Assembly: GCA_003218415.1 (NCBI GenBank)
Contig: QHNK01000033.1
Span: 1 to 33,495, forward strand
Direction of reading: 5' to 3'
Length of the DNA stretch: 33,495 bases
Origin: Verrucomicrobiota bacterium
GTDB lineage: Bacteria; Verrucomicrobiota; Verrucomicrobiia; Chthoniobacterales; UBA10450
Under the pieces are notes generated by a model. That model saw nothing but the letters and a program-made list of their open reading frames with translations. It made no database searches and had not been told where the DNA came from. The translations under genes were made by a program, and so were the position numbers. Positions within the stretch are counted from its first letter, which is position 1, and every line of letters starts with the position of its first letter. Below are positions 1 to 1,447 of this stretch, in pieces.

Positions 1-157
1 GGTTCGGCAAGCGCAGCGACTCGTCACTAACATTCATCGATTCATCGCACGGCACCATGCAACGCGCATCGAGCGGTTTTTCCAAGCAAAAATGATGAAG
101 TGCTGTCCGGCGCTGGATGTTGAACATTGAGCGTTGGGCGTTGAACGTTGGTGTCTC

Positions 158-823
158 ATGCTAAAAGCGATCTTTTTCGACGCAGTCGGCACGCTCTTTA
201 GGTTAACAAAGACTGTAGGCGATCATTACGCCTATGTCGGCCGTGAGGTCGGATTAGATATTAATCCCCAAAATCTCGAGCGCGCATTTCACACGGCTTG
301 GAAAAAGATGCCGCAACGCGCCGCCATCGATGGACCGCGTGAAAACGACGATAAAGGCTGGTGGCGTGAGCTTGTCGATCTCGTCCTCGAGCAAGTCGCG
401 CCCGCATTGAGCGAATTCGATCGGGACAATTTTTTCGAGATCGCTTACGAACATTTTGCCGAAGCCGGCGTTTGGGAGCTTTACCCGGAAGTTCCCGGCG
501 TGTTGGAGAAATTACAGGCGCGCTTTGAACTCGCCGTGATTTCAAATTTCGACGGACGTTTGCGCTTGATCCTCGGGCACCTGGGCATCTCGAAATTTTT
601 CCGTCACGTTTTCGTTTCCAGCGAGCTCGGCGCGGACAAACCTGACCCGGAAATTTATCGGCGCGCACTGAAGTTCGTCGATCTGAAGCCAAATGAGGTC
701 CTCCACGTCGGCGATGATCCGGAACGCGATTGGGAAGCGGCCAGCGCGGCTGGTTTATCGATCTTTCGTTTGGATCGACGAAAGAATTCGCTGCGCGATC
801 TGCTCGCGACGTTGAAATTGTAG
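158..823 (+). CDS. HAD family hydrolase
   Basis: Protein MLKAIFFDAVGTLF... with HAD motif I (FFDAVGT), VISNFDGR, and KPDPEIYRRAL...HVGDDPERDWEAA. ATG at 158 preferred over the ORF-track start. Confidence 0.88.
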   Translation: MLKAIFFDAVGTLFRLTKTVGDHYAYVGREVGLDINPQNLERAFHTAWKKMPQRAAIDGPRENDDKGWWRELVDLVLEQVAPALSEFDRDNFFEIAYEHFAEAGVWELYPEVPGVLEKLQARFELAVISNFDGRLRLILGHLGISKFFRHVFVSSELGADKPDPEIYRRALKFVDLKPNEVLHVGDDPERDWEAASAAGLSIFRLDRRKNSLRDLLATLKL

Positions 824-880
824 GGCAAGCGCGCCGCTTGGCGAACGTTGCATTGGCGGGCGAAGCGCCTGCCCTACAAT
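817..880. repeat. Inverted-repeat element, 16-bp arms (ATTGTAGGGCAAGCGC / GCGCCTGCCCTACAAT)
   Basis: Arms at 817-832 and 865-880 are near-perfect reverse complements. The left arm contains the TAG stop of the HAD gene. Confidence 0.8.
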
Positions 881-923
881 CTTGCGAGGATGTTCGATCT
901 GGATTAGAAAACGTTTCCGGCGC

Positions 924-977
924 GGGTCGGTAGCTCAATCGGTAGAGCAGCCCCGAAAGCTTTCGGGGTTGGTTCTG
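924..977 (+). pseudogene. tRNA-like fragment: 5' half identical to tRNA-Lys, then an 18-bp palindrome in place of the anticodon arm; T-arm degenerate
   Basis: GGGTCGGTAGCTCAATCGGTAGAGCAGC (28 bp) is identical to the 5' end of the tRNA at 1019. It is followed by CCCCGAAAGCTTTCGGGG, then TTGGTTCTGGATTG, which diverges. Confidence 0.8.
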
Positions 978-1018
978 GATTGAAAAATCTCCTCGCGGCC
1001 TCAAAATGAAGGCTGCAT

Positions 1019-1091
1019 GGGTCGGTAGCTCAATCGGTAGAGCAGCGCCCTTTTAAGGCGTTGGTTCCGGGTTCGAGTCCCGGCCGACCCA
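1019..1091 (+). tRNA. tRNA-Lys (anticodon TTT)
   Basis: Full cloverleaf: acceptor GGGTCGG/CCGACCC, D-arm GCTC/GAGC, anticodon stem GCGCC/GGCGT with loop CTTTTAA, T-arm CCGGG TTCGAGT CCCGG. No encoded CCA. Confidence 0.95.
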
Positions 1092-1099
1092 AATTTTCT

Positions 1100-1447
1100 A
1101 TGGCCTGGGTTTATATCCTCCGCGGTGTGCGCCGATATTACATCGGTGCCACCGAAAATCTAAGTCGCCGGATGGCTGAGCACAGGCGTGGAAGCAATCA
1201 CACCACACTCCGTTTCGGAGCAGAAGTCGTGCTCGTGGCAGCGAAACAACTACCTTCGATGGCCGAGGCGCGCGCACTTGAACGCCAACTCAAACGCAAG
1301 AAGAATCCTCAGCTAGCGATTTCTGCATTGAAGTCGACAGAGAACTCAAACCAACGAGAGCGGCCCCGAAGGCTTTCGGGGTTGGTTCCGGGTTCGAGTC
1401 CCGGCCGACCCATCATTCGCAGTTTGAGTGTCTCATCATCCACATGA
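1100..1447 (+). CDS. GIY-YIG nuclease family protein whose C-terminus is encoded by a tRNA 3' fragment
   Basis: MAWVYILRGVRRYYIGATENLSRRMAEHRRGSNHTT... has the GIY-YIG motif (VYIL...YYIGAT). ATG lies 9 nt after the tRNA end. The C-terminal LVPGSSPGRP is translated tRNA T-arm and acceptor sequence. Confidence 0.85.
   Translation: MAWVYILRGVRRYYIGATENLSRRMAEHRRGSNHTTLRFGAEVVLVAAKQLPSMAEARALERQLKRKKNPQLAISALKSTENSNQRERPRRLSGLVPGSSPGRPIIRSLSVSSST
1356..1412 (+). pseudogene. tRNA 3'-half fragment preceded by an imperfect CCCCGAAGGCTTTCGGGG palindrome
   Basis: 1381-1412 (GTTGGTTCCGGGTTCGAGTCCCGGCCGACCCA) is a 32-bp exact copy of 1060-1091. The palindrome at 1364-1381 matches that of the 924 fragment with one change. 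Confidence 0.85.

Follow-up and report, generated by a model that had tools for sequence, protein, structure and literature searches.

A putative minimal GIY-YIG mobile element in the anticodon arm of tRNA genes of Verrucomicrobiota

In the genome of a verrucomicrobial bacterium (Chthoniobacterales, UBA10450; assembly GCA_003218415.1, contig QHNK01000033.1, forward strand), an intact tRNA-Lys gene is followed closely by an ORF for a GIY-YIG nuclease and then by a second copy of the tRNA 3' half. How did a nuclease gene come to lie between two copies of tRNA sequence, and which tRNA belongs to the host? We addressed this question in the window, by which we mean the whole stretch of 33,495 nucleotides that was analysed. 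A preliminary description had reported an exact 32-bp repeat of the tRNA-Lys 3' half with a spacing of 321 bp and a GIY-YIG ORF 9 nt after the tRNA, and both were confirmed: 1060-1091 is identical to 1381-1412, 321 nt apart, and the ORF starts with the ATG at 1100, 9 nt past the tRNA, and matches Pfam GIY-YIG (PF01541, E=2.9e-11). The intact tRNA-Lys(TTT) occupies 1019-1091 (ARAGORN; Rfam tRNA, 75.7 bits). Repeat, tRNA and ORF had thus been read correctly, but the description had missed an upstream partial tRNA-Lys, both palindromes and an inner promoter-like site. A longer form of the 3' repeat, starting at 1057 and 1378, extends over 35 bp at 97% identity. The upstream partial tRNA-Lys lies at 924-954 (31 bp, 97%), and its first part, 924-950, is identical to tRNA nucleotides 1-27. 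In all, tRNA-Lys is present in the window three times, in part or whole: as nucleotides 1-27 (924-950), as the intact gene (1019-1091) and as nucleotides 43-73 (1382-1412). The anticodon arm of both partial copies is replaced by an 18-bp palindrome, CCCCGAARGCTTTCGGGG (951-968 and 1364-1381); together with their tRNA borders, the palindromes form a 38-bp direct repeat (89% identity, 413-bp spacing). The features of the locus are listed below, where G062 and G066 are relatives in which the site is empty.

878..923, + strand: native leader/promoter of the original tRNA-Lys (leader score against empty type-1 loci; contiguous with empty G066 and G062)
924..950, + strand: 5' half of the original, split tRNA-Lys (equals tRNA nucleotides 1-27; unbroken alignment to empty G062 and G066)
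951..968, + strand: left terminal palindrome CCCCGAAAGCTTTCGGGG, replacing the anticodon stem-loop (direct reading; family pattern scan)
951..1381 (about), + strand: whole mobile element including both palindromes (absent from G062 and G066)
980..1007, + strand: element-borne promoter-like site TTGAAA-16-CAAAAT for the internal tRNA (consensus scan)
1019..1091, + strand: intact, element-borne replacement tRNA-Lys(TTT) (ARAGORN, Rfam; internal tRNA of other type in L020/L027 and L082)
1100..1447, + strand: GIY-YIG nuclease ORF, conserved part about 1100-1345 (Pfam PF01541; invariant catalytic positions)
1357..1363, + strand: AGAGCGG, remnant of the 3' side of the tRNA D-stem, left of the right palindrome (one change versus tRNA AGAGCAG)
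1364..1381, + strand: right terminal palindrome CCCCGAAGGCTTTCGGGG (direct reading; folds as a hairpin)
1382..1412, + strand: 3' half of the original, split tRNA-Lys (exact tRNA nucleotides 43-73; unbroken alignment to empty G062)

With its ends the element measures about 430 bp, and in many lineages a complete unit takes up 300-430 bp. A consensus scan found two promoter-like sites in the region where 0.2 were expected. The distance from the left hairpin to the tRNA is similar in most elements, and the D-stem remnant occurs in target-specific variants (L048, L054). No Rfam intron family was detected in 800-1500, even at E<=1, and a group I or group II intron was rejected on this ground. An integrase is absent from the unit, since 300-430 bp with GIY-YIG as the conserved ORF leave no room for one; an HUH Y1 transposase is likewise absent, the element protein being GIY-YIG by Pfam and by fold. 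As a separate observation, 1379-1411 (the 3' tRNA half with the hairpin end) can fold as an acceptor stem and T-arm (GGGTTGG/CCGACCC) and resembles mascRNA below the Rfam threshold (25.6 bits, E 0.0077). It might be where RNA is processed downstream of the GIY mRNA.

To identify the original gene, we compared the locus with its counterparts in relatives, where a HAD hydrolase, tRNA-Lys and a serpin (Pfam) lie side by side and the same neighbours are found where the site is empty. The empty G062 aligns to window 1-839 at 90.7% identity, to 914-954, which comprises the leader and the first 31 nt of the tRNA, and on the serpin side to 1378-2912 at 96.2%, starting within the tRNA. The empty G066 aligns to 162-954 and to 1378-2898, each contiguously. 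In both genomes an intact tRNA spans the junction between the counterparts of window 954 and 1378, and further empty sites with the same synteny include L096, L098, L110, L111, L114, L120 and L130. This unbroken alignment identifies 924-950 and 1382-1412 as what is left of the original tRNA-Lys, its 5' and its 3' half with the anticodon loop lost, and 951-1381, including the intact tRNA-Lys, as the insert. Taken together, the alignments show an element inserted in the anticodon arm of the original tRNA-Lys, splitting the gene. The preliminary description had placed the insertion behind the tRNA, with the 3' end regenerated, and had taken the intact tRNA-Lys for the host gene. Both were misreadings: the halves flank the element, and the intact gene lies inside it. 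At other split tRNA genes across Verrucomicrobiota the break is also always within the anticodon arm. Nearly every genome has a single place where a full-length tRNA-Lys(UUU) was found, so splitting this gene without a spare should be lethal. Almost all of the genomes compared appear to be draft assemblies, many of them metagenome-assembled.

The origin of the spare can be followed where the tRNA types differ. In G016 (L027) and G013 (L020) the halves that flank the element belong to type A (GGGTCGG...CCGACCCA), which prevails in their genus and is seen, for example, at the empty L102, whereas the intact internal tRNA is of type B (GGGTTGG...CCCAACCCA) and closely resembles its counterparts in other genera of the family. 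The T-stem of G041 (L082) reads CTGGG/CCCAG in the internal tRNA; the 3' half has GTGGG/CCCAC, like the congeners G042 and G044. Since the halves in G013, G016 and G041 are of the host type and the internal tRNA is of another, the spare was brought by the element. It is these three chimeric loci that point to a foreign origin of the cargo tRNA; most internal tRNAs have the host's own sequence. The outer leader in the window (46 nt before the 5' half) scores 38/46 against native leaders of empty type-1 loci (L120), and the inner leader, in front of the internal tRNA, has no match to native type-1 leaders. The inner leader was accordingly rejected as a copy of the host promoter, its best scores in the window not being to native type-1 leaders. 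At four 'empty' loci with type-2 tRNA-Lys (L104, L105, L108, L119), the leaders (TTGAAAAATCTC...) resemble inner leaders of some elements. This resemblance suggests that the tRNA and promoter of an old element may have taken over at the type-2 loci after loss of the rest.

A protein search of 83 genomes of the family, made regardless of tRNAs, was used to fetch the loci of the 30 best GIY homologues, and 28 of these start directly behind a tRNA (15 tRNA-Lys(UUU), 13 CAU tRNA). The CAT tRNA is called Met by ARAGORN and may be tRNA-Ile2. The 13 strongest matches of an order-level search are all of the tRNA-element type, although two do not lie directly behind an intact tRNA, one being second in a tandem pair and the other a separated copy in G040. 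Weaker order-level matches include copies behind tRNA-Asn and initiator Met with hairpin-bearing tRNA 3' parts. When 388 Verrucomicrobiota genomes were scanned for VY[IVM]L no more than 45 nt after a T-arm, 36 matched versus one reversed-pattern hit; some matches are not real GIY genes, and a GIY gene was confirmed by HMM at 23 of the phylum-scan loci read. The same anatomy was seen at tRNA-Ala(GGC), Arg(CCG, CCT), Ser(TGA), Thr(TGT), His(GTG), Pro(TGG) and initiator Met. An arrangement that recurs in dozens of genomes is far beyond chance.

These results bear out the proposal of the preliminary description that a tRNA-targeting mobile element uses a GIY-YIG protein instead of an integrase, which is well supported by the empty sites, the other tRNA targets and the chimeric tRNAs. 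Its two suggested searches, in relatives for the locus without the unit and at other tRNAs for the ORF with matching 3'-half copies, yielded G062, G066 and further empty sites on the one hand and several tRNA types on the other. The pattern that it had set against mobility, namely no empty sites and homologues away from tRNAs, was checked and was not what we found. Mobility of the element is strongly supported by this comparative evidence. A near-identical element at two unrelated loci was not found, so no very recent transfer is documented.

Searches of plasmids found no relatives, and viral contigs contained no relative by protein and no GIY-YIG protein at E<=1e-3 among the tRNA-GIY pattern matches listed; a phage or plasmid origin was rejected on these results. 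In Actinobacteria, the tRNA-linked GIY pattern occurred in 3 of 150 genomes versus one control hit, which is about chance level. GIY-YIG homologues of another setting were observed there. In Mumia (L057, L058; G468 C1, about 1044-1048 kb), GGTTGAGCGAGCGAAGCGAGTCGAAACC occurs 87 times with up to 3 mismatches and is clustered in inverted orientation on both sides of the GIY gene, as REPs are around RAYT genes, and the actinobacterial homologues at L059 and L061-L063 likewise lie among REP-like palindromes. The actinobacterial set is possibly a second kind of GIY-YIG repeat mobiliser. The window's own genome has another GIY-YIG gene, at about 365-583 of L001 (G000:C49), among palindromic repeats of the GTCATCCCGAGC...GCTCGGGATGAC type.

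The palindrome motif of the window was found in 32 of the 83 family genomes and in none with the reversed-pattern control. A tRNA-Lys or CAT tRNA (ARAGORN) stands beside it at every locus fetched except L093, and the idea that the palindrome is scattered through the host genome in the manner of REPs was rejected because the motif occurs only beside such tRNAs. At other tRNA genes the hairpins vary in sequence (CCCGACATGGTCATGTCGGG, CCCGGCTACCGTAGCCGGG, TCCTCCTTTGGAGGA, ATCCCGATATTATCGGGA, ATCCCGCAACTGCGGGAT and others), occupy the same tRNA position in every subfamily and all fold. Hairpins that are unlike in sequence and alike in place and fold indicate that the hairpin itself matters.

The encoded protein is usually about 80 aa long and consists of a bare single GIY-YIG domain. 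The copy in the window lacks the usual stop, so that its frame stays open through the 3' tRNA half to 1447. Positions Y5, Y14, G16, R24, H28 and E61, which are catalytic positions, are invariant in 24 sequences; the protein thus has the PF01541 domain and the conserved Tyr, Tyr, Arg and Glu of the GIY-YIG superfamily. The predicted structure (pLDDT 85) is nearest to the folds of UPF0213 BH0048 / 1zg2, Slx1 and the UvrC nuclease domain. Median dN/dS values of 0.22 for Lys elements and 0.11 for CAT elements, the latter from few usable pairs, indicate purifying selection. Lys and CAT forms are mostly separate in a tree with weak support, the best identity to the window GIY within the family is 74%, and frameshifted GIY copies exist in some genomes. 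In most elements only about 7-16 nt separate the end of the tRNA from the GIY start codon (window 1092-1099; linkers in L010-L060). With so short a linker, the mRNA would be nearly leaderless after tRNA 3' processing.

Several loci carry more, or less, than one complete unit. Tandem units are 100% identical in L168 (the first two) and L184, and 99.7/97.2% identical in L321, on a 6-Mb single contig. L011 holds two stacked GIY genes that are 65% alike, one of them 80% like a copy in another genome, which suggests that the pair may stem from two separate arrivals. ORF-less units are found at L018 and L178, loci with a 5' half and hairpin only or with decayed halves are common, the 5' half is missing in many copies, and the distribution of the element within genera is patchy. 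If the 27-bp 5' repeats or the 32-bp 3' repeats later recombined with each other, the left or right part of an element would be lost, which could give rise to the 5'-half-only, 3'-half-only and decayed forms, while tandem arrays could result from repeated insertion or unequal exchange. At L154/L155 (G040 C12:150.6-170.8 kb) the left end and tRNA are about 20 kb away from the right part and GIY-YIG gene of the same element; the interval holds many chromosomal genes, with an ORF resembling a TniB-type ATPase near the GIY gene. We read this as an element that was rearranged internally. Stand-alone 3' parts of tRNA-Lys, many of about nucleotides 28-74, occur in several genomes without GIY-YIG (L156-L163) and are probably attachment sites of ordinary integrase islands.

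We consider it probable that the locus represents a minimal selfish mobile element that breaks a tRNA gene at the anticodon arm while providing an intact copy of that tRNA under a promoter of the element. As to how it moves, we tentatively propose, with close to an even chance of being right, a natural 'home-and-rescue' element: a nuclease cutting an essential single-copy tRNA gene, homologous repair and a rescue tRNA, with lineages in Verrucomicrobiota specialised on about ten tRNA types. The GIY-YIG protein, whose cutting of the target tRNA gene we infer, would act at the anticodon loop of this gene, present either as duplex or as a folded tRNA-like hairpin. The break would be repaired from an occupied donor, with the tRNA halves (about 27 + 31 bp) as homology arms; since these halves are conserved, they would offer enough homology even in distantly related hosts. 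The terminal hairpins would mark the ends, disable the old halves and perhaps make them uncuttable, and the spare tRNA with its own promoter would let the host survive loss of the target gene. One point counts against this scheme: as the anticodon arm of the internal tRNA equals that of the target, the nuclease should cut its own element unless flanking sequence matters. Entry by a hairpin-guided copy or paste is an alternative, to which we prefer homologous repair across the tRNA halves.

Such a hairpin-guided route could make the element a transposon whose terminal palindromes are the substrate of GIY-YIG, much as REP and IS200/IS605 hairpins are that of HUH transposases. The nuclease would cut out or copy the element as a single strand or circle with one AGAGCAG-hairpin-TTGGT, to be pasted into the folded anticodon arm of a tRNA gene. 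The occurrence in all subfamilies of quite different hairpins at one and the same tRNA position, element ends that are direct repeats, the ORF-less, MITE-like units in L178 and the likeness of the fold to Slx1, a cutter of branched DNA, are all in keeping with it, and it gains some weight from the actinobacterial homologues that lie off tRNAs among palindromic repeats. However, those proteins are just 29-37% identical, no excision product or circle is known, and the tRNA halves at both ends are equally usable as arms for ordinary repair. We regard this mechanism as possible but somewhat doubtful.

The patchy occurrence within genera and the frameshifted and decayed copies also bear on whether the locus serves the host. 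A regulatory or defence unit, in which the GIY-YIG protein and the hairpin tRNA halves act on a tRNA or transcript, would fit the purifying selection, the ORF so close behind the tRNA (7-10 nt) as to suggest co-transcription, and the many uses of GIY-YIG folds; given that patchiness and decay, the stacking of divergent copies and unrelated tRNAs as targets, it seems improbable. A local tandem duplication without mobility, by which tRNA-Lys was duplicated, its copies decayed and a GIY-YIG gene trapped between them was inherited, would account for the tandem arrays and for internal tRNAs that are mostly of the host type, but is very hard to reconcile with empty sites in close relatives, elements at many different tRNA genes, chimeric internal tRNAs and inner leaders unlike the native outer ones. 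Least credible of all is that an integrase island once entered the 3' end of tRNA-Lys and left this remnant, the repeat being its attR. In its favour, the 3' halves of tRNA genes are well-known places of attachment, and isolated ones (about nucleotides 28-74) do occur elsewhere without GIY-YIG; here, though, the 5' half is duplicated as well, a hairpin stands in place of the anticodon arm, and the unit lacks an integrase yet is complete at 300-430 bp in many lineages. The split original tRNA-Lys contradicts an integrase island, and the isolated 3' halves elsewhere carry no GIY-YIG.

If the preferred reading, a selfish element carrying its own rescue tRNA, is true, the element would be among the smallest autonomous mobile elements known and a natural counterpart of engineered cleave-and-rescue gene drives, directed at essential tRNA genes. 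Fragments of tRNAs, exchanged promoters and the horizontal replacement of tRNA genes in bacteria would thereby be explained, and some single-domain GIY-YIG (UPF0213-like) proteins would gain a function. The origin of split and intron-bearing tRNAs, whose break likewise lies at the anticodon loop, would become easier to approach.

No published GIY-YIG element of this kind was found in the open-access literature, subscription papers and preprints lying outside the search. The element matches no known mobile-element family that we found, so that we regard it as provisionally novel. It resembles a homing element equipped with a rescue gene, or else a hairpin transposon, yet none of the intron, integrase and HUH families tested fits it, since a defining part of each is absent. 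With group I introns in tRNA anticodon loops it shares the site of insertion; unlike them, it has no intron match and holds a whole tRNA between the halves, and splicing does not restore the old tRNA. Tyrosine-recombinase integrative elements share tRNA targets and a repeat of the tRNA 3' part, whereas our element lacks an integrase, has entered the anticodon arm at the cost of the old gene, and includes a complete tRNA. In Caldiarchaeum, tRNA-Thr is disrupted by a 1.8-kb recombinase mobile element, with a fragment near the intact tRNA (PMC3293823); in contrast to the present element, that is a single archaeal case of an intron-containing tRNA and a recombinase element. In CPR rRNA genes, one report describes GIY-YIG coding insertions unlike group I/II introns, with most insertions at the top or base of stem-loops (PMC11270868). 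Those insertions are in rRNA rather than tRNA and are not known to come with a replacement gene. Like REP/RAYT (TnpA-REP) and IS200/IS605 elements, ours is hairpin-bounded, with palindromic hairpins at both ends, very small, and made up of a nuclease gene and ORF-less relatives; it differs in having GIY-YIG rather than HUH Y1, ends that are tRNA halves and strict anticodon-arm targets. GIY-YIG homing endonucleases of the I-TevI type share with it the GIY-YIG core, a conserved host gene as target, and occupied and empty alleles at a conserved site, here the window versus G062 and G066. In contrast to these, the element has no intron or intein and encodes a protein of about 80 aa without a visible added DNA-binding domain, and it breaks an essential gene, brings a spare copy and ends in hairpins.
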